Both the position numbers and the translations under genes were made by a program. The notes under the pieces were generated by a model. The model was not told where the DNA came from. It saw only the letters and a program-made list of their open reading frames with translations, and did no database searches. A DNA stretch of 64,000 bases from Planctomycetes bacterium syqfu (lineage in GTDB: Bacteria > Planctomycetota > Phycisphaerae > Phycisphaerales > Phycisphaeraceae): contig CP087563.1 in the NCBI GenBank assembly GCA_020974905.1, positions 6,758,001-6,822,000 on the forward strand. Direction: 5' to 3'. Positions 16,369-24,127 of the stretch are shown here, piece after piece; position 1 is the first letter of the stretch; the number at the start of each line of letters is the position of its first letter.

Positions 16369-16836
16369 TTACTTTATGTTGTGAACAAGATCGTCATGTT
16401 GCAATGGGAATTCGTGCCCATGTTCGATCGCCCATGCTGCTGCCTTTGCGTTGAGCGGGCTTTGTGTGTTGTAGCTTTGATAGCAGAGCATCTCGCCAAT
16501 ACGAACAATCAGATCGACCAAACGTTGACCAGCACTCCAGTGATCGCCGATGCAGATTTTCTGCTCATCAATATTGGGATGAAACACCGGCGTGAGCATT
16601 CGGCAAAACGGTGGGCGGCGGGGGTAGTCCAGTGACAGAAAAATTTCGGCTGTATAGCCAATGTGAAGCATGGGGCTATCTGTTGCATCGAGCACCATTG
16701 AACGCACTTTATACAACACGTTGTACTTTTCCGGCGGTGTTCCTTCAGTTTGAACGATTTCAATGAAGGGATGATCCGCGAAGGTATCGGTGACTTGTTG
16801 GGCGTCGGCAGCTAAACGTCTTAAGCGTGGGTGCAT
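16369..16836 (-). CDS. Ubiquitin-conjugating E2-like protein
   Basis: A 155-residue protein with the full landmark series of the UBC fold: YPRRPP at 71-76, the HPN signature at 86-88 (FHPNID), the candidate catalytic Cys95 in KICIGDHW seven residues after HPN, a following Trp100, and a C-terminal PLNAKAA segment at 127-133. These match the order and spacing of eukaryotic E2 enzymes, so thioester transfer from the E1-like protein at 20002-21207 is expected. It is the last gene of the nine-gene operon, 20 bases after the RING-like gene. Sequence context supports the role; activity is inferred. Confidence 0.88.
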   Translation of the reverse strand: MHPRLRRLAADAQQVTDTFADHPFIEIVQTEGTPPEKYNVLYKVRSMVLDATDSPMLHIGYTAEIFLSLDYPRRPPFCRMLTPVFHPNIDEQKICIGDHWSAGQRLVDLIVRIGEMLCYQSYNTQSPLNAKAAAWAIEHGHEFPLQHDDLVHNIK

Positions 16837-16856
16837 GATGAATCTCGTTAACTTGA

Positions 16857-17462
16857 TCAGGAACCAAAGATACTGTGAAGCAGGACGACAAGCAGCATGA
16901 TCAGGCTTTGAAACCAGGCAATGCCCAGGGCAATTTTACAGATAGCCGAATACATGGCGGGTAGTTTTGCGATGACCTGGCGATTGGATCGATACCAGAA
17001 CAAACCGACGATGGCGGCAAGGGGAGCGGTACATGAAATGATGCTGAAAACAAAGAGCCATATCCCTTGCAGACGAACTTGGGGAATGCGTTTCTTGAGT
17101 TGTGTATCTGATTGAAACGTGTTGACATCCTGCGGTTTGGCCGAGTCGAATATCGTGCCACAGAAGCGACAACGTATGGCAGCAGCTTGAATGGTTTTGT
17201 TGCATGACGGACAGGGTTTTTCTTCACAGCCCCAATATGATGCCGGGATTTCCACGTCCGTGAATTTTTCTGTAGGTGGACATTGGGAACAGCCATATTG
17301 AGCGCATCCGCCGTTGTACTCCCAGCATTCAGTGTGGTAAACGCTATGGCAATCCGTGCAGTCGACGGTTGGTTCGCCGGGCAAGATCGGTGCCTGGCAG
17401 ATTGGGCACTGATCCTGCTGAGTGTTGACAGTCGCATCGGGTTGGTGTTCGTTGGATGACAT
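16857..17462 (-). CDS. RING-like zinc-finger membrane protein (candidate E3)
   Basis: A 201-residue protein. Residues 19-61 hold a RING-like treble-clef pattern: C19xxC22, C35xxC38, H43xxC46, then C53, C58 and C61. A second zinc pair set follows, C84xxC87 and C98xxC101, like a zinc ribbon. Two hydrophobic segments (about 128-155 and 170-198) predict membrane anchoring with the zinc domains in the cytoplasm. RING-type domains recruit charged E2 proteins, and the E2-like gene lies directly downstream, so an E3 role is a reasonable inference. The ligand spacing is not the canonical eukaryotic one; it resembles the prokaryotic RING families. It begins two bases after the stop of the FHA gene, indicating tight co-translation. 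Confidence 0.75.
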   Translation of the reverse strand: MSSNEHQPDATVNTQQDQCPICQAPILPGEPTVDCTDCHSVYHTECWEYNGGCAQYGCSQCPPTEKFTDVEIPASYWGCEEKPCPSCNKTIQAAAIRCRFCGTIFDSAKPQDVNTFQSDTQLKKRIPQVRLQGIWLFVFSIISCTAPLAAIVGLFWYRSNRQVIAKLPAMYSAICKIALGIAWFQSLIMLLVVLLHSIFGS

Positions 17463-17464
17463 GA

Positions 17465-18832
17465 TCAGTTATTGTTGGCCTTGCAATTGAAGGTAAAAAG
17501 AGTGCTGCCCAGTCCGACCTGGTCGCCGTGACGCAGGCGTGACCGCTTGATGACACGCCCGTTGACGGTTATGGGGTATGTTGGATCCATGCCTTCAATT
17601 TCATAGGAACCACCATTGGCACGAAGGATGGCATGATGATCGGTGACTCCGGGATCGTTAAATAGATAGATGTCGGATCGCGGGGAACATCCCATGCGCA
17701 TGGTGTTTTTGAACACGAGAAATTCTTTACCTGCCAGTGGCCCCTTGGTCATGCAGAACCATGCGTCACGGCCGAGTAATTCGACAATGCCGATCATCGC
17801 GCCAACTGTCAGGCCGATAATGGTAAAGCCGATCATGCGTGACCAATGAGCTGAGGGATTGTGTTCACTGACGATCAGGAAGTGCACCGGATCAAAGAGC
17901 AACCCACCGATGAGTCCACCAAGGATGCCGCCGATCAGCCCGTAAAGTGCGAGTTTGCTCGAGCGCATGGCCATACCTTGTCCCAACCCCATTGCCACAC
18001 CTGCAAAAGCCCACGCCAGGGAGCGGCCTCCCATTTGTACAAGGAAGCCGCTGGTGGAGAAACTGCCAATGGCGTCACCGGATTGTCTTGAAGCTAACTC
18101 AGTTAACGGTGTGTAGACGATATTCGCAATGACAGACGAAACAAAGCCACCAAGTAACCCGATGATCAAGCCAACGGCGCCGGCAAGCAATGCACGACGT
18201 ACAAGGCGGCAGGCGATCCCATCAGTTGCGCCAATCCCCAGGCCGATCATGGCTGCAACCAATGGGAAGATGAACATGCTGATGGCTTGGTGTCTTGCAG
18301 AGATTGCATTTAATGATTGGTCGGCATCAGCAGGTGTTTGTGCAGGTGGATTAAGTTCCACGTTAACTGCGTAAGATATTTTTTCACCGAGCTCTGGCAA
18401 CCATTCGACATAGAACCCTGCTTGCTGCTCGATGCGCAGGTCATCAACTGTACTCTCTTTTTGGGTGGTCGGCGTTTGGGCCGAAAGCATAATAACCTGC
18501 CCGTTATCCAGGTGTACTTCTCGGAAGTCCGAGTCTTCTGCATCATTGGGGGCAGCGACGATTTTAGTGACTGTGCCCTGGATATAGATATGATCATCAT
18601 AGAACGGTTCCATGATCGCCCATGCAATAAAGGCGAAGAGTCCGCCTACGAGCATGAAGGTAAACCAGTTTTGCATATACCAATGGCCGTTGCTTTCACG
18701 GGCAATGCCCAATTCGCCGCGCAGGGACATCTGACGTTTGAGCAGATCGTCGACGTGCGAACTATTGGCTTGTTCTTTGGTGATGCGCAGGACCGGCCTT
18801 TGCGTTCCGGAATTGAGGTCGGGCTGGTTCAT
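17465..18832 (-). CDS. Multi-pass membrane protein with C-terminal FHA domain
   Basis: A 455-residue protein. One transmembrane helix lies near 57-75 (WFTFMLVGGLFAFIAWAI), followed by a soluble beta-rich segment at about 78-175. A glycine-rich multi-helix membrane region covers about 185-350. The C-terminus (about 368-450) is an FHA domain, with MRMGCSPRSDIYLF, VTDHHAIL and a VNGR turn. FHA domains bind phosphothreonine peptides, so this protein could place the conjugation machinery at phosphorylated membrane targets (inference). It sits inside the ubiquitin-like operon, 49 bases after the JAMM gene and two bases before the RING-like gene. Confidence 0.85.
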   Translation of the reverse strand: MNQPDLNSGTQRPVLRITKEQANSSHVDDLLKRQMSLRGELGIARESNGHWYMQNWFTFMLVGGLFAFIAWAIMEPFYDDHIYIQGTVTKIVAAPNDAEDSDFREVHLDNGQVIMLSAQTPTTQKESTVDDLRIEQQAGFYVEWLPELGEKISYAVNVELNPPAQTPADADQSLNAISARHQAISMFIFPLVAAMIGLGIGATDGIACRLVRRALLAGAVGLIIGLLGGFVSSVIANIVYTPLTELASRQSGDAIGSFSTSGFLVQMGGRSLAWAFAGVAMGLGQGMAMRSSKLALYGLIGGILGGLIGGLLFDPVHFLIVSEHNPSAHWSRMIGFTIIGLTVGAMIGIVELLGRDAWFCMTKGPLAGKEFLVFKNTMRMGCSPRSDIYLFNDPGVTDHHAILRANGGSYEIEGMDPTYPITVNGRVIKRSRLRHGDQVGLGSTLFTFNCKANNN

Positions 18833-18881
18833 AATTGAAATTCCTGTTTATTGAGCGGGCGTCGTGCTGGGGGCTTGACTG

Positions 18882-20000
18882 CTATCGGGGGGGAGTTGTT
18901 GGTGGGGTTTCCTTTTGGGCTTCTTTTTCCAACGCTTCTTTTTCGTCTGCTTCGATCTGCTTGATTTTTTCAAGGATCGCCTCGCGGTGGGTCGGATCTT
19001 TGAGTTGCTCGATGAGCATGTTCTCCAGAACCATAAGCGTCCGTTCGGGAGGGATGCCATGCCAATAGGCCTTGATACCCACGAAGCCCAGGTTATTGCC
19101 TTCGGTATCGGCGAGCGGCATGGGGGCGACCTCGCCGATTTCCTTGGGGGGTATGTATGGGTTGAGTATCCCATCGACGATCTGGTAGCCAATCCAACCG
19201 ATGATGCACACTGCCACGAACATCATCAGGAAAGTATTGGCGCGGTGGTTGCTGTTTTGCGTCTCTTCGATGAACTGCATCAGTTGGCTGATGCGTTGTT
19301 CGAGTTGGTTGATGGAGTCTTTGATTTCTGGCGAATGGATGTTGGCAGTTGTCAGGCTGTCGGTGTTTTCTTCTTCCTGGGGTTCGGTGTTGCGACAGCG
19401 ACGTTCTCTGCCATTGACCCAGAACCGGCTGATGGGTTTGATCTGACCTTCATGGTTTGCACAGATGGCTTCGTCACCGCTTAACGGGTCGGTCACCAGG
19501 GCGAATTGTGCGGGGTCAGAGAAGAAATTCTGCTGGATGAATTTATCCATGTCCGAGAAGTTCACGCCAAAGCCCGGGTGCGAATGATACCAGCCGACGA
19601 TGCTGAGTTTGGGATATTCGCTTTCGCGGACCTTGTGGATTTCGTCCCATGTTTCCTGGGTGTAGGTGACGTGTGTCCCACCACTGCGCGAAGTGCTACC
19701 TCGGATGGCACCTTTGACGTCGACGTACAAGCCGTGATCATCTTGGCAGAGATCGCCGACCATTACACCGCATATTTCGGCATCCAATGATTCACGAGCA
19801 TGGCCAAGAATGTCCGCGTAGGCTTGGCTGTCAAAACTGATGCGCAGCCATTGACTGGCACTGGCGGGGCCTGGGAATTTGCGGTAGTGCACTTTACTCA
19901 TGTCGTCAGACCAACCGGAGACCTTTACGTCGTCGTTTTTTTGGGGGGCTTGTGGGTTGGTCTTGTCGCTGTTGTTTGAATTTTTCTTTTGCTTGGACAT
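18882..20000 (-). CDS. JAB/MPN-domain (JAMM) metalloprotease with transmembrane anchor
   Basis: A 372-residue protein. Residues about 50-200 form a JAB domain with a complete JAMM zinc site: Glu75 in AEICGV, His139 and His141 in WYHSHPG, Ser149 and Asp152 in FSDMD (H-x-H-x7-S-x2-D). All catalytic residues are present, so it should be an active isopeptidase that removes or matures a ubiquitin-like protein. A coiled segment leads to a single transmembrane helix at about 255-274, then a charged C-terminal domain ending in a Glu/Lys-rich coiled coil. It starts one base after the E1 stop. Membrane-tethered deconjugation is the likely role. Confidence 0.9.
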   Translation of the reverse strand: MSKQKKNSNNSDKTNPQAPQKNDDVKVSGWSDDMSKVHYRKFPGPASASQWLRISFDSQAYADILGHARESLDAEICGVMVGDLCQDDHGLYVDVKGAIRGSTSRSGGTHVTYTQETWDEIHKVRESEYPKLSIVGWYHSHPGFGVNFSDMDKFIQQNFFSDPAQFALVTDPLSGDEAICANHEGQIKPISRFWVNGRERRCRNTEPQEEENTDSLTTANIHSPEIKDSINQLEQRISQLMQFIEETQNSNHRANTFLMMFVAVCIIGWIGYQIVDGILNPYIPPKEIGEVAPMPLADTEGNNLGFVGIKAYWHGIPPERTLMVLENMLIEQLKDPTHREAILEKIKQIEADEKEALEKEAQKETPPTTPPR

Positions 20001-20001
20001 G

Positions 20002-21207
20002 TCAATCCTCCCGGTTTACTGCATGCACCCGACTTGTTTTTAGCTGTGTTTCCAGATCGCCTGCCAGTTCAATGCCAATGCCGTTCATACCGTTGCGTGC
20101 CCAGAGTACGTCCCATGCAGGCAATCCTAGCTGGCTTGCAGACATCTGCATCAACTCTGAGTTCAGCTCAACGCTATGGACGAATGCAGGGATACATTCC
20201 TGTTGACAATTTTCACAAACAAGCTCAGATGGCTTGAGTCGATCCACAGGTATAAACATGGTGCGTGTGTTTTTGCAGTTGGGGCATGTGAGAGTGTGCA
20301 CTAACTCACGCGAAAAGTCGATGGCATCAAGGCCGCCGAGTTTTTGGCTGGCCCATTGGCTGATGGTGTGCAATGGCGTGTCGGAGTTGAACTGCTCCAT
20401 GACTTCGATGGCAACGGGTTGTTCATGCCACGGGCAGTTTTTGCCATGGGTGTACTGGATTGGGTAGGAGGTGTGTCGCAAACCTTCATAGACGAAGCCA
20501 CCGCCGTCGAGACATTCGAGATTGTGCAGTCGCTTGACGACTTCCTGTGCCTGCATGGCACCGATGACCGATGCTGTGGTGATGGTGGTGGGGACTCCGC
20601 CTGCATCAAAAGCCTGCCTGGCAAGTAGGGAACAGGAACGACGCTGGTTGACCAGTTGCCAGTCGGCATTGCCCATGGTGCATTCGTAACAGGGGGTTCT
20701 CGGGGCATCGAAACCGCGGACAATACCGTTGAGTACGTCCAAGCCGCCATCGACCCAGGGGCGTTGTGTCTGGACGCAGGATTGATTGACGTAAAGCCTC
20801 GCTTCACGATTATCAAGTGCGCCGACGACCACGTTTGCCCAACGAAACCAACCAAGCCCAAGGTCTGCAAGCACGTTGCCTTCGATCACATGCACATCCA
20901 AGGTCGGGTAGAGTTCCAGAGCTGCCATGGCTGCGGTGCGTGTTTTGGGATGCCCCTCATCCGACTCGCGAAACAAAACCGAACGACTCAGATTACTGGC
21001 TTCGATTTTGTCCATGTCCGCAATCGCAAGATGCCCGATCCCCAGCAGGGCGAGGTTCTTGATCACCTCGTTACCCAGGGCACCGGCACCGATCACCAGC
21101 ACGCGGGCGTTGGCCAGTTTCTGTTGGTCCCACCACTTGATGCTTTGGTGTCGCGTAAAACGGTCCTCCTTGAGGACCATGGATTGGCCGGGCGTCGGCT
21201 CGGTCAT
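20002..21207 (-). CDS. ThiF/E1-like ubiquitin-activating protein
   Basis: A 401-residue protein. The nucleotide-binding motif GAGALG is at 40-45, followed by Asp64/Asp66, the conserved Arg75 in SNLSRS, Lys88 and the DNREAR adenylation motif at 132-137. A C173xxC176 pair and Cys192 (RRSCSLL) follow; Cys192 aligns with the crossover-loop cysteine of MoeB/E1 proteins before the VIGAMQAQE helix. A C-terminal zinc module has C308xxC311 and C331xxC334. It should adenylate the C-terminus of the ubiquitin-like protein encoded immediately upstream, with which it shares an ATGA start/stop overlap. This gene pairing argues for E1 function rather than thiamine or molybdopterin synthesis. Confidence 0.88.
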   Translation of the reverse strand: MTEPTPGQSMVLKEDRFTRHQSIKWWDQQKLANARVLVIGAGALGNEVIKNLALLGIGHLAIADMDKIEASNLSRSVLFRESDEGHPKTRTAAMAALELYPTLDVHVIEGNVLADLGLGWFRWANVVVGALDNREARLYVNQSCVQTQRPWVDGGLDVLNGIVRGFDAPRTPCYECTMGNADWQLVNQRRSCSLLARQAFDAGGVPTTITTASVIGAMQAQEVVKRLHNLECLDGGGFVYEGLRHTSYPIQYTHGKNCPWHEQPVAIEVMEQFNSDTPLHTISQWASQKLGGLDAIDFSRELVHTLTCPNCKNTRTMFIPVDRLKPSELVCENCQQECIPAFVHSVELNSELMQMSASQLGLPAWDVLWARNGMNGIGIELAGDLETQLKTSRVHAVNRED

Positions 21208-21500
21208 GGACGATCCTTTGCTTCGATGACAGCGCCGGCAGTGATTTCCGGCTGCAGACGCAGGTCATCGCCATTGCACACACCCGATTCAATGAGCGTT
21301 TGGTCATCATGCAATTGCTTACCACTTCGCCGGTGATGGAGCTTATAGCTCATGATCTGGCCATCGGGGCTGTTCAAAGGCAGGTTCATCTGTTCGACAA
21401 GAATGACCAGCAGGCGTGCGATTTCCACGTCGTCTGGTGCTTCGACTTCCTGGTGACGCGAGCCGGTGATGTCCCAGATTCGCATGTTAATATTGGCCAT
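21204..21500 (-). CDS. YukD/EsaB-type ubiquitin-like protein
   Basis: A 98-residue beta-grasp protein. The pattern is strand (NINMRIWDITGSR), strand (HQEVEAP), helix (EIARLLVILVEQ), strand (YKLHHRRSGKQL), DDQTLIESGVCNGDDL, then the final strand LRLQPE. This is the YukD/EsaB layout. The C-terminus is ITAGAVIEAKDRP: there is no Gly-Gly. The last small-residue pair is Ala88-Gly89, with nine residues after it. It overlaps the E1 gene by four bases, so the two are almost certainly partners. Whether it is processed at Gly89, conjugated in another way or acts non-covalently is open. Confidence 0.82.
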   Translation of the reverse strand: MANINMRIWDITGSRHQEVEAPDDVEIARLLVILVEQMNLPLNSPDGQIMSYKLHHRRSGKQLHDDQTLIESGVCNGDDLRLQPEITAGAVIEAKDRP

Positions 21501-21536
21501 GAGTCAAACTCCGGTTCATGATGTATGTTCGATGGA

Positions 21537-21833
21537 TTAAAGCATGTTCGCTTCGGGCATGCGATGCCTGACAGTGGCCAACGCTTTTTGAACCAGGATG
21601 CGAACGGCTTGCATGTGGGTTTCGTTTTTGGGGTTGATGCCGAGGGTGTAGCGGGTGGTACCCACGCCGATAGTTAACTGGTTGGCGTCTGAGAGGACAA
21701 TGTAGTCGATCTGACTATACTCAATCTTTCGAGTCGATGCGAAAGCCACGCCTTCACTGAAACTGGCACTGAATTCACCGACATTGAGCTTGCGGACTTC
21801 AAGGAAGCTTGAGTCATTAATGAGAAAATTCAT
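21537..21833 (-). CDS. Small PH-like-fold protein of the ubiquitin-like operon
   Basis: A 98-residue protein that I do not recognise by name. Several alternating hydrophobic strands (GVAFASTRKIEYSQI, DYIVLSDANQLTIGV, TRYTLGI) are followed by one long C-terminal helix (HMQAVRILVQKAL). That order is what a pleckstrin-homology-like domain shows, but this is a fold guess from pattern only. No cysteines or catalytic signature are seen. It lies 36 bases before the ubiquitin-like gene and 15 bases after the two-finger membrane protein, inside the operon. A scaffold or adaptor role is possible. Confidence 0.6.
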   Translation of the reverse strand: MNFLINDSSFLEVRKLNVGEFSASFSEGVAFASTRKIEYSQIDYIVLSDANQLTIGVGTTRYTLGINPKNETHMQAVRILVQKALATVRHRMPEANML

Positions 21834-21848
21834 AGTTAAACTCCTTGC

Positions 21849-22709
21849 TCAGTTCCCCAGCAAACCGACGATTATCAGAAAAATCCAAAGGCAAAGGACA
21901 ATGGCGTTGCTGATGATGCCAACCCAGAGAATGCCGGAATTACTACGGTTTTTCTCCCGCGCTGACACCCCCAGGCCGATTCCGATCACGGATGGAATGA
22001 TCACAATCAACATCAGGAAAACACCGAAGGCATCCTCGCCCTTTTCTGCCATGGATTGCAATAGACCTGCAAAAACCGCAGCCGTCAGGACGATTGACCA
22101 CATCCCCAGAGCAATGGAGAAAAGTGCCAACATCTTGCGCGATTTTGACATCTTTGTGACAGGATTGGTTGCACACGAAGGACACAGATGCAGGTTGCCC
22201 GGGTAGGTGAAAACGCATGTGCTGCATACCGGTGTTCCGCACTGTGAACATTCGGCAACGGCAAGAACGTCGGGGTGGCTAACGCAAAACGAATCAAGCT
22301 CTCGGGTGGGAATCACACTGCCTGATGTATCTGTGCTCGGACCTGCTGCACAATCCGGGCACAGGTGACTGCCATCGGCATAGGCAAAGTCGCATGTATT
22401 GCACACAGCTGCTCTGCATTGTCGGCAGTGGGCGACCGCCGGCATGTCTGGGTGTCGCTTGCACAAGGCTTCACAAACCGGACTGGTGGGTGGTGCCTGC
22501 GTATTGGCCAGTTCGTATGTGTCATCGCCTGACGTTTGCTGGATATATTGAGGTTCGGGGGACAATGGTGTTTCGTTGCTGCGAACCGGGAGAATGGACG
22601 GATCGCGGACGTACAGCAGCCGATGGTGATTCCCGTGATTAGGACAAATCGCCCGACCATCGAAGGTCGGGGTCATACTTTTCATACATAACGGACAGTA
22701 TAAAGCCAC
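21849..22709 (-). CDS. Membrane protein with two B-box-like zinc fingers
   Basis: A 286-residue protein. An N-terminal zinc ribbon (CPLC, then CPNHGNHH) is followed by two similar modules. Module one runs from CKRHPDMPAVAHCRQC to CPDC; module two from CVSHPDVLAVAECSQC to CPSC. Each has the C-x2-H, CxxC, CxxC, CxxC spacing of bacterial B-box-type fingers. Three hydrophobic segments occupy the C-terminal 90 residues, resembling the DUF4190-like membrane hairpin. It is the second gene of the ubiquitin-like operon and shares its architecture with the first gene at 22779-23192. B-box-type fingers in eukaryotes often accompany RING domains; here a substrate- or partner-binding role is inferred. Confidence 0.75.
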   Translation of the reverse strand: MALYCPLCMKSMTPTFDGRAICPNHGNHHRLLYVRDPSILPVRSNETPLSPEPQYIQQTSGDDTYELANTQAPPTSPVCEALCKRHPDMPAVAHCRQCRAAVCNTCDFAYADGSHLCPDCAAGPSTDTSGSVIPTRELDSFCVSHPDVLAVAECSQCGTPVCSTCVFTYPGNLHLCPSCATNPVTKMSKSRKMLALFSIALGMWSIVLTAAVFAGLLQSMAEKGEDAFGVFLMLIVIIPSVIGIGLGVSAREKNRSNSGILWVGIISNAIVLCLWIFLIIVGLLGN

Positions 22710-22778
22710 GTTCGCGTTCTCCCCCAGCAGAACCAGTAGTCAATTGTGATAAAGACTAATTCACAGGATTGGATTAAA

Positions 22779-23192
22779 TCAGTGAGTGCCTTGTGACAGG
22801 GCAACAATTCGGCTAATAGTTCCCAATAACCACAGGATCAAGCCGATGACACCAATAATGGTGGCGGCGGTGGCTTTACCCGATCCTGTCATTGCAGGGT
22901 TCTCCGCAATCATTTTCTTGGCTTTGGATGCCTTGATCAATGCCAATGGCTCGAGAATGATACCGAAGCAGAATATCCCGATGATAGCCATGATCAATGC
23001 GTCATTGGCTTCTTTGCAGGGGATGGTTGCTTCGTCTGGGATGACAGCTGCTGCCGGACTTGCGGCCATGGTTTTACAGGCACCGCAGTACTGTTTACCA
23101 CCGATTTCTACTAGACAATTTGAACAAAACGATTCGGCGCAGCCTTCACAGCGACCTACAGCATTAACACCTGGATGATTTTTACATTCCAC
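22779..23192 (-). CDS. B-box-like zinc finger plus DUF4190-like membrane protein
   Basis: A 137-residue protein. Residues 1-42 hold one B-box-type finger: CKNHPGVNAVGRCEGC, then CSNC and CGAC. Two hydrophobic helices follow with a Lys-rich loop (IKASKAKKMIAENP), the layout of DUF4190-like membrane hairpins. It is the first gene of the operon and is divergent from the DUF2752 gene, with a 95-base gap that probably holds both promoters. Function is not known. It looks like a short version of the neighbouring two-finger protein. Confidence 0.75.
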   Translation of the reverse strand: MECKNHPGVNAVGRCEGCAESFCSNCLVEIGGKQYCGACKTMAASPAAAVIPDEATIPCKEANDALIMAIIGIFCFGIILEPLALIKASKAKKMIAENPAMTGSGKATAATIIGVIGLILWLLGTISRIVALSQGTH

Positions 23193-23287: not shown

Positions 23288-23701
23288 ATGTCAAAAAAAA
23301 CGCGTTATCACGTGATGATTTTGGTTGGTAGCCTGGTTGTGCTGCTGTTGAGTTTCCTGTTGAATTTCAATCAGCACACGGTGCATATTCGTGGCTTGAA
23401 CCATATGGCTTTACCGGATGTCTGTTTTTTTAAAATGGCAACCGGGTGGGATTGTCCGTTCTGCGGATTAACGCGTAGCTTCGTTGCTATTGCCCATGGG
23501 CAACCGCATGAAGCTTTTAAATATCATCGATTATGTTTTTTGGCATTATTCATTGTTGTCGGCCAGTTGCCATATCGTGTCGCACTGATCTGTCACCCCG
23601 GAATTGCTGACTTGATTGTGATGCGTTGGCTTAAGCAGTGGACCGTTCCAATATTCATCTGGTTGGCTGCGATCAATTGGATTGCTGGTGTTTGGATCTA
23701 G
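23288..23701 (+). CDS. DUF2752 membrane protein
   Basis: A 137-residue protein. An N-terminal transmembrane helix is followed by the DUF2752 signature (GWDCPFCGLTRSF), a conserved histidine-rich turn (AFKYHRLC) and two more hydrophobic helices. The function of the family is unknown. Start ATG 23288. It is the only plus-strand gene between the two 62-bp repeats and is divergent from the ubiquitin-like operon, so it may belong to the same unit. Confidence 0.8.
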   Translation: MSKKTRYHVMILVGSLVVLLLSFLLNFNQHTVHIRGLNHMALPDVCFFKMATGWDCPFCGLTRSFVAIAHGQPHEAFKYHRLCFLALFIVVGQLPYRVALICHPGIADLIVMRWLKQWTVPIFIWLAAINWIAGVWI

Positions 23702-24054: not shown

Positions 24055-24127
24055 TGGAGCTGATGGGGATCGAACCCACAACCTCTGCATTGCGAACGCA
24101 GCACTCTCCCAATTGAGCTACAGCCCC
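24055..24127 (-). tRNA. tRNA-Ala (anticodon CGC)
   Basis: Read on the minus strand it folds as a cloverleaf of 73 bases: acceptor GGGGCTG pairing with CAGCTCC, including the G3-U70 pair that identifies alanine tRNAs. The D arm starts TAGCTCAATTGGGAGAG, the anticodon stem is CTGCG/TGCAG with loop TTCGCAA (anticodon CGC), and the T arm is GTGGG-TTCGATC-CCCAT. The discriminator is A and CCA is not encoded. Confidence 0.93.

Follow-up and report, generated by a model that had tools for sequence, protein, structure and literature searches.

A 64,000-nucleotide stretch of the Planctomycetes bacterium syqfu genome (contig CP087563.1, positions 6,758,001 to 6,822,000; hereafter the window) carries a nine-gene operon whose products very likely conjugate a ubiquitin-like protein (Ubl), judging from their domains and residues. 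We consider it fairly likely that this operon specifies a membrane-anchored, eukaryote-style and reversible conjugation system that is assisted by a RING-type protein and works at the inner membrane.

A nine-gene operon with parts of a ubiquitin-like conjugation pathway

The original prediction, made from the letters of the window, placed nine open reading frames (ORFs) in one operon, and we found all nine in a single row on the minus strand from 23192 to 16369, with consecutive genes spaced by -4 to +69 nt. Its set of E1, E2, RING-like, Ubl, JAMM, FHA-fold, PH-fold and B-box-like membrane proteins was borne out by Pfam and, for the PH-fold protein, by an AlphaFold2 model. The profile searches returned the families it had proposed to look for (ThiF, UQ_con, YukD, Prok-JAB/JAB, FHA and Prok-RING_1), and DUF4190 scored above its cut-off. 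The genes are listed below with their lengths in amino acids (aa), transmembrane-like (TM-like) stretches and Pfam E-values.

22779..23192, minus strand: membrane protein with a B-box-like zinc finger and DUF4190, 137 aa (DUF4190 1.9e-9; two TM-like stretches)
21849..22709, minus strand: membrane protein with two B-box-like zinc fingers N-terminal of the membrane region, 286 aa (zf-B_box 2.9e-5)
21537..21833, minus strand: PH-fold protein, 98 aa, no TM-like stretch (AlphaFold2 model and fold match)
21204..21500, minus strand: YukD-type ubiquitin-like modifier, the Ubl, 98 aa (YukD 8.9e-11)
20002..21207, minus strand: E1-like activating enzyme, 401 aa (ThiF 1.5e-49)
18882..20000, minus strand: JAMM/JAB isopeptidase with one TM-like stretch, 372 aa (Prok-JAB 1.7e-9, JAB 2.8e-9)
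17465..18832, minus strand: polytopic membrane protein with a C-terminal FHA-fold domain, 455 aa (FHA 1.4e-9)
16857..17462, minus strand: Prok-RING (C4HC3) membrane protein, putative E3, 201 aa (Prok-RING_1 1.2e-9)
16369..16836, minus strand: E2 ubiquitin-conjugating enzyme with HPN and Cys95, 155 aa (UQ_con 6.4e-13)
23288..23701, plus strand: divergent DUF2752 gene, possible accessory part (DUF2752 1.3e-16)

Hydropathy assigns TM-like segments to five of the nine proteins, namely both B-box-like proteins, the JAMM, the FHA-fold protein and the RING protein, and a membrane location is likely on this sequence evidence. All nine genes are under purifying selection when compared with the related locus L004, with pN/pS values ranging from 0.11 for the Ubl to 0.43 for the PH-fold protein. 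That such an arrangement arose by chance is not credible; the system is real and conserved, and it is probably active in Ubl conjugation. A promoter scan returned 10 hits against 9.2 expected by chance, which provides no evidence for promoters.

The Ubl, E1 and E2 retain the residues expected for conjugation

The Ubl of the operon reads PEITAG near its end, followed by a tail of 9 residues. PEITAG is present in all 17 aligned Ubls, seven of which end exactly at its Gly, while the others, that of syqfu included, continue for 3 to 21 residues. Among 14 additional Ubls from the phylum, every one retains AG, which is terminal in three. The Ubl and E1 genes overlap by 4 nt: in the operon, as in L004, E1 translation would begin within the stop region of the tailed Ubl gene. 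A PDB profile search aligned the conserved Gly with Gly76 of ubiquitin, a weak match in which strong E-values came only from polyubiquitin chains and shorter ubiquitin chains reached 0.05 or worse. This tail pattern reads as that of a modifier with a processed C-terminus, for which the JAMM is the candidate processing enzyme.

The E1 consists of a ThiF domain, a loop carrying Cys192 and a C-terminal domain with four near-invariant Cys residues. Cys192, which the original prediction had singled out, is invariant together with C173, C176, C258 and H261 in 20 of 20 aligned E1s, and in 19 of 19 in another alignment. The AlphaFold2 model of the E1 (pLDDT 85.7) matched MoeB (Z 30.8), UBA3 (29.6) and SAE2 (about 28), with Cys192 lying in a low-confidence loop at 190-198. 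Many of these structural alignments cover the adenylation domain only and stop near residue 264; several of those to SAE2, UBA1 and UBA7 extend to model residue 381-384, which corresponds to the ubiquitin-fold-domain region. For SAE2 (9dqb_B), 304 residues were aligned at Z 28.3 and rmsd 3.5, using VIA-align on the whole model.

The E2 active site reads HPN...CIGDHW, and its matches in PDB are mostly eukaryotic E2s, from 2.5e-8. H86, P87, N88 and C95, of which the HPN motif and Cys95 had been noted previously, are invariant in 27 of 27 aligned E2s, a count from which the UBC-like proteins of L033-L035, three proteins that lack the active Cys, had been set aside beforehand.

The JAMM, RING and FHA-fold proteins carry TM-like stretches

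In the JAMM, whose zinc residues were predicted to be intact, E75, H139, H141, S149 and D152 are invariant in 21 of 21 sequences, and its TM-like stretch spans 254-272. Its closest solved relatives are PSMD14/Rpn11 (1.6e-9), then the Rpn11-like chain 6fjv (2.2e-8), which we take to be a protein of the archaeon Caldiarchaeum, and then CSN5. The RING protein retains all eight ligands (C19, C22, C35, C38, H43, C46, C53 and C58) in 23 of 23 sequences and has TM-like stretches at 131-149 and 177-195. It also contains a zinc-ribbon-like stretch (UPF0547 1.8e-5, below cut-off) and has no FHA domain.

The FHA-fold membrane protein has five TM-like stretches. Its FHA fold agrees with the original prediction, but the domain is not a canonical phosphothreonine-binding one: the Gly, His and Asn are retained, and the phosphate-binding Arg position is Ser, Ala or Cys in 20 of 20 homologues. 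Since this Arg is replaced throughout, phosphothreonine reading by the membrane FHA domain is unlikely.

B-box-like, PH-fold and DUF2752 proteins

Assignment of the two membrane proteins to the B-box class deserves modest confidence from their sequences. The 286-aa protein, with three TM-like stretches, matched zf-B_box in two stretches at 24.5 bits against a cut-off of 24.1, while the best B-box model for the 137-aa protein (ANCHR-like, 4.8e-5) fell below its cut-off. The 98-aa PH-fold protein had no significant Pfam match; its AlphaFold2 model (pLDDT 81.2, from a 3-sequence alignment) shows seven strands and a C-terminal helix. It matched PH/FERM-PH folds up to Z 10.4 (the PH-type domain of neurofibromin, 7mp5_A; rmsd 2.8, 88 aligned), in a search where models without a clear match typically reach a best Z of 7-8. 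Homologues of the B-box-like genes lie beside the core in L004, L010 and L052, whereas PH homologues are confined to L004 and L010. The DUF2752 gene accompanies an operon-type cluster in genome G686 and had no match in G201, G687 or G297.

The core genes are inherited as a unit

Relatives were gathered by an E2 search. The class-level loci and L004 supplied the sequences for the core-gene profiles, six in all, so that only L042-L062 are independent of these profiles. A UBC match was found in 26 of 298 genomes of the class, and the phylum was sampled through 20 matches spanning the UBC domain, beyond which further such matches exist. A phylum-wide tally of 246 of 392 genomes was rejected because the N-terminal zinc ribbon of the E2 profile inflates it. 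The complete collinear order Ubl-E1-JAMM-FHA-RING-E2 occurs in 25 of the 52 loci examined, and the core is thus conserved as a unit, as a check of gene order proposed with the original prediction had asked. Contig ends cut eight of the 52, and the contig of L022 begins within the cluster. Over 25 loci, the tree distances of Ubl, E1, JAMM, FHA and E2 agree (r 0.68-0.86), and 0 of 999 permutations reached the observed value in each of the 10 gene pairs. What we observed for this system is its gene order, its domains, its invariant residues, its joint inheritance and its purifying selection.

Several loci depart from this layout. E2-like proteins without an active Cys occur in five of the 52 (L033-L035, L054 and L055). 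Those of L033, L034 and L035 are long (840-927 aa) and UEV-like, with a UBC-like domain followed by a long C-terminal region that has no Pfam match; its lack of the catalytic Cys was read directly in L034 and L035, and all three genomes also carry an active-type E2. L059:7522-13373 encodes two JAMMs, two E2-like proteins (one without the active Cys), one E1 and one Ubl. At L036:10858-13481, an E1-like gene is followed by JAB-like and metallo-beta-lactamase-like (MBL) genes, which is a different, E1/JAB/MBL type. L037, a weak match interrupted by a stop, was left out of the comparison. E1 matches at 1e-15 appeared in six plasmid-collection records, and the one from the cyanobacterium Crinalium epipsammum has an adjoining E2 and JAMM (L062; NC_019754.1, plasmid pCRI9333.03, 6010-9487); this compact locus runs E1, two small ORFs, E2, JAMM, and the plasmid is mobilizable.

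A second system in the same genome and the position of the operon

The syqfu genome has a second UBC gene (C1:6185384), which belongs to a second, diverged six-gene copy at L003:3135-8681 (within C1:6177000-6195000). This copy comprises a Ubl, an E1, a JAMM, an FHA-fold membrane protein, an FHA-RING protein and an E2 with an N-terminal zinc ribbon. Its RING protein has a canonical N-terminal FHA domain (7e-16) and a Prok-RING_1 match of 0.0069, below cut-off; a Prok-RING_1 search of the genome listed the RING of the operon alone. In both the E1 and FHA trees, the L003 copy groups with L016 and L011, which belong to the family of syqfu, and is placed close to loci from a different family in the class, while the operon at 16369-23192 groups with L004, L009 (whose sequence ends at the Ubl), L010 and L052. 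Among 51 genomes of the family, the operon-type RING was found at full length in two and short RING matches of the sister (L003) type in six, including four from the genus; a complete six-gene sister-type locus is present in three of those six (L003, L016 and L011).

A tRNA-Ala(CGC) gene lies at 24055-24127, 0.9 kb from the operon. Similarity between the window and either G201 or G687 stops no more than 2 bases from the tRNA end, whereas for G686 it continues to 23737, just short of the DUF2752 gene. The segment from PilM to tRNA-Ala is common to three congeners, and within the reach of their contigs the operon does not adjoin it there; in G686 the operon and DUF2752 gene are on a separate contig from this segment. 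Either the module has therefore been relocated whole, or the DNA around it has been rearranged. We did not adopt a mobile-island reading and keep it as a lead only, because the window showed no repeated copy of the tRNA end, the G+C content of the operon (52.3%) is close to that of the whole window (51.3%), and the congener contigs stop 1.3 to 3.8 kb beyond the tRNA.

RING proteins of relatives carry FHA or trypsin-like domains

In relatives the situation is reversed: a separate N-terminal FHA domain is present in 16 of 23 RING proteins, and 15 of these 16 have the canonical Arg. Prok-RING_1 matched 20 of the 23 at 0.01, often weakly, and the RING identity of some FHA-bearing proteins is read from their eight aligned ligands. 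The domain order FHA then RING is that of the eukaryotic E3s RNF8 and CHFR. As in those proteins, the sister systems, L003 included, join an N-terminal FHA and a C-terminal RING in one chain. The operon RING differs from RNF8 and CHFR in having no FHA, and the bacterial fingers differ in being C4HC3. With the RING-protein profile, the RNF8 FHA scored 6.3e-5 and was outranked by many FHA domains of bacteria; the likeness is probably convergent.

The conjugation clusters of relatives, most of them from outside the class, encode a further RING protein whose chain runs on into a trypsin-like domain. This fusion was found in 10 of 12 proteins chosen for the purpose, with the His-Asp-Ser triad intact in 10 of 10; one example is L049:10403-11713, and the others are in alignment A6 (L043-L051, L022:2151-3458). 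In four of the 12, Pfam places DUF4190 between RING and trypsin-like domain, and DUF4190 also occurs in the 137-aa protein of the operon. The three spans we read in DUF4190 would put the trypsin-like domain outside the membrane. Among open-access titles and abstracts we found no description of either fusion, FHA-RING or RING-trypsin, from bacterial operons of this kind, and do not claim that none is in print.

Comparison with known systems

Burroughs, Iyer and Aravind reportedly described prokaryotic operons of RING, E1, E2, JAB and YukD-like Ubl genes with a RING-type E3 in 2011. Like that kind, the loci studied here have adjoining E1, E2, JAB, Ubl and RING genes, collinear in the 25 loci counted above, a YukD-like Ubl with a Gly in its C-terminal region (followed by a tail in the syqfu operon) and an E2 with the eukaryote-type HPN...C active site. 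The operon kind was already predicted in 2011, and what is distinct here is the membrane-anchored build. The original prediction had pointed to computational surveys of such E1/E2/JAB/RING operons, and correctly so: one article, with reference to Burroughs et al. 2011, names Planctomycetes beside Actinobacteria and Acidobacteria as bacteria with relatives of the Caldiarchaeum operon (PMC4197634).

The Caldiarchaeum subterraneum operon described there unites Ub, E1, E2, RING and Rpn11-like genes, as the syqfu operon unites Ubl, E1, E2, RING and JAMM genes. Unlike this archaeal operon, that of syqfu is anchored in the membrane and adds B-box-like, PH and FHA-fold parts, and its Ubl is YukD-type and ends in AG. 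Iyer et al. 2006 sorted E1/JAB operons into five types, the majority of which include an E2-like domain; the section consulted names a possible treble-clef zinc finger and no RING (PMC1779556). Conflict systems with a JAB, an E1, a RING-type E3 and a Ubl-E2 protein are described in PMC7159879, which also cites Burroughs 2011, while the accessible part of PMC7203096 makes no mention of ubiquitin.

Bil (BilABCD) likewise has a Ubl, an E2, a JAMM and an E1. BilA is described as having two consecutive Ubl domains and BilB as having a CEHH motif (PMC11354881), whereas in the syqfu operon the Ubl domain is single, the E2 is of the HPN type, and there are also a RING and membrane parts. The operon E1 matched the PADLOC BilD model at 4e-8 over residues 33-139 only, with E1-E2 models scoring higher (up to 9.3e-15), and the operon E2 had no PADLOC match at E up to 1. 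The E1/E2/JAB logic of the operon is also that of Bub and type II CBASS Cap2/Cap3. CBASS combines a CD-NTase with an E1-E2 fusion; unlike in type II CBASS, the E1 and E2 of the operon are separate genes, and neither Pfam nor PADLOC matched a CD-NTase in the operon or its ten large neighbours. Bub operons are often accompanied by CapW, CapH+CapP or CapK+CapS, according to PMC13373217; none of these was recognised among the scanned neighbours, where no search with their own models was made.

Proposed mechanism and alternatives

We infer the catalysis, location and substrates of the system as follows. The JAMM would trim the tail behind Gly89 of the Ubl, which the E1, to judge from its invariant residues and fold, would then adenylate and load via Cys192. 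Transfer to the E2, at Cys95, would be the task of the E1 C-terminal domain, which in several alignments reaches the eukaryotic ubiquitin-fold-domain region. The C4HC3 RING membrane protein would recruit E2~Ubl to the inner membrane, where membrane or envelope proteins would be modified, and the membrane-held JAMM would reverse the modification. The FHA-fold, B-box-like and PH proteins may serve as scaffolds or substrate adaptors. Membrane proteins would thereby probably be regulated or kept under quality control. Their proteasomal destruction is disfavoured, because a search of the genome with the proteasome model gave a single family match, which reads as HslV.

A number of points weigh against this membrane conjugation reading. 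The TM assignments come from hydropathy alone, the Ubl ends in AG and not GG, and the finger of the putative E3 is of the C4HC3 type, the pattern of PHD and RING-CH fingers. Five of the 52 loci (L014, L025, L030, L042 and L047) have an active-type E2 and lack at least one core gene, with no contig end to account for it. Seven compact loci (L056-L062) lack FHA, with no JAMM match in L057 and no Ubl-profile match in L062; FHA and RING are therefore dispensable in some systems. Joint inheritance may partly reflect common species history. Finally, the envelope role, which we regard as plausible, draws on neighbours and on fusions in relatives, not on this operon.

The original prediction also raised defence, and an anti-phage system of the Bil or CBASS sort, in which infection would lead to attachment of the Ubl to proteins of the phage or the host, is the alternative with the most to recommend it, although we judge it unlikely. 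Its spread is patchy, as the two full-length operon-type RINGs in the family illustrate, the module sits at different positions in G000 and G686, a compact relative resides on the mobilizable Crinalium plasmid, and Bil and CBASS have published roles of this kind (PMC12687455). However, scanning viral contigs for two short peptide patterns yielded no confirmed E2 relative, PADLOC at 1e-6 gave no match in the ten large neighbours (which include a sulfatase, GH123-like and acetyl xylan esterase-like proteins, PilM and a glycosyltransferase), and PADLOC matches within the operon were confined to the E1 core and weak JAB matches. Moreover, all four genus genomes examined have a sister-type RING match, and an exopolysaccharide-type gene stands beside the cluster in loci of another family. 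This Wzz/AAA_31 gene (identified by Pfam on one copy) is near the cluster in 11 loci of that one family: divergent on the Ubl side in nine (L012, L015, L017, L019, L020, L024, L026, L027 and L029), on the same strand in L014 and on the far side in L025; it is absent from L030 and L032, and shared ancestry within the family may explain the association. A defence role is thus unsupported.

Use of the Ubl as a degradation tag for an ATP-dependent protease (FtsH, Lon, Clp or HslUV), as an analogue of the ubiquitin-proteasome route, would fit the resemblance of the JAMM to Rpn11 and the RING-trypsin fusions of relatives; it appears quite improbable given the HslV-like match and no AAA+ protease gene in the operon or the ten large neighbours. 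A sulfur-carrier or cofactor pathway in which the Ubl carries sulfur, like ThiS/MoaD, finds some basis in the E1 fold, for which MoeB gave the highest Z and ThiF and UBA3 scored about 1 lower, but is very hard to reconcile with the canonical E2 (HPN and Cys), the RING protein, the membrane anchoring and the YukD-type Ubl. Least probable of all is a part in a YukD-containing, T7SS-like secretion apparatus: the YukD match and the FHA fold in a membrane protein recall one, but a full set of conjugation enzymes is present, and no WXG100 protein or FtsK-type ATPase was found in the operon and its ten large neighbours, the rest of the genome not having been searched.

Significance

To our knowledge, the best studied bacterial Ubl pathways (Bil, CBASS and Bub) have no separate E3, while in the family described here the RING is a protein of its own, the JAMM resembles Rpn11, the E2 is of the HPN type and membrane anchors are present. 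Bil and CBASS act in phage defence, and for Bub phage defence is not shown, according to PMC13373217. We also entertain, as a doubtful extension, that Planctomycetota might possess a diversified inner-membrane ubiquitin network, with parallel Ubl systems per cell, B-box/PH-type modules and phosphothreonine-steered FHA-RING (RNF8/CHFR-like) E3 modules, and RING chains crossing the membrane into an HtrA-like protease, which would amount to envelope quality control analogous to ERAD. If the operon-encoded proteins do conjugate, they would constitute a bacterial ubiquitin-like system with separable E1, E2, E3 and deubiquitinase (DUB) for reconstitution, and would bear on the question of whether RING-assisted, phospho-steered ubiquitination had more than one origin. 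With two parallel systems in one genome, the specificity of Ubl pathways becomes testable in a bacterium.

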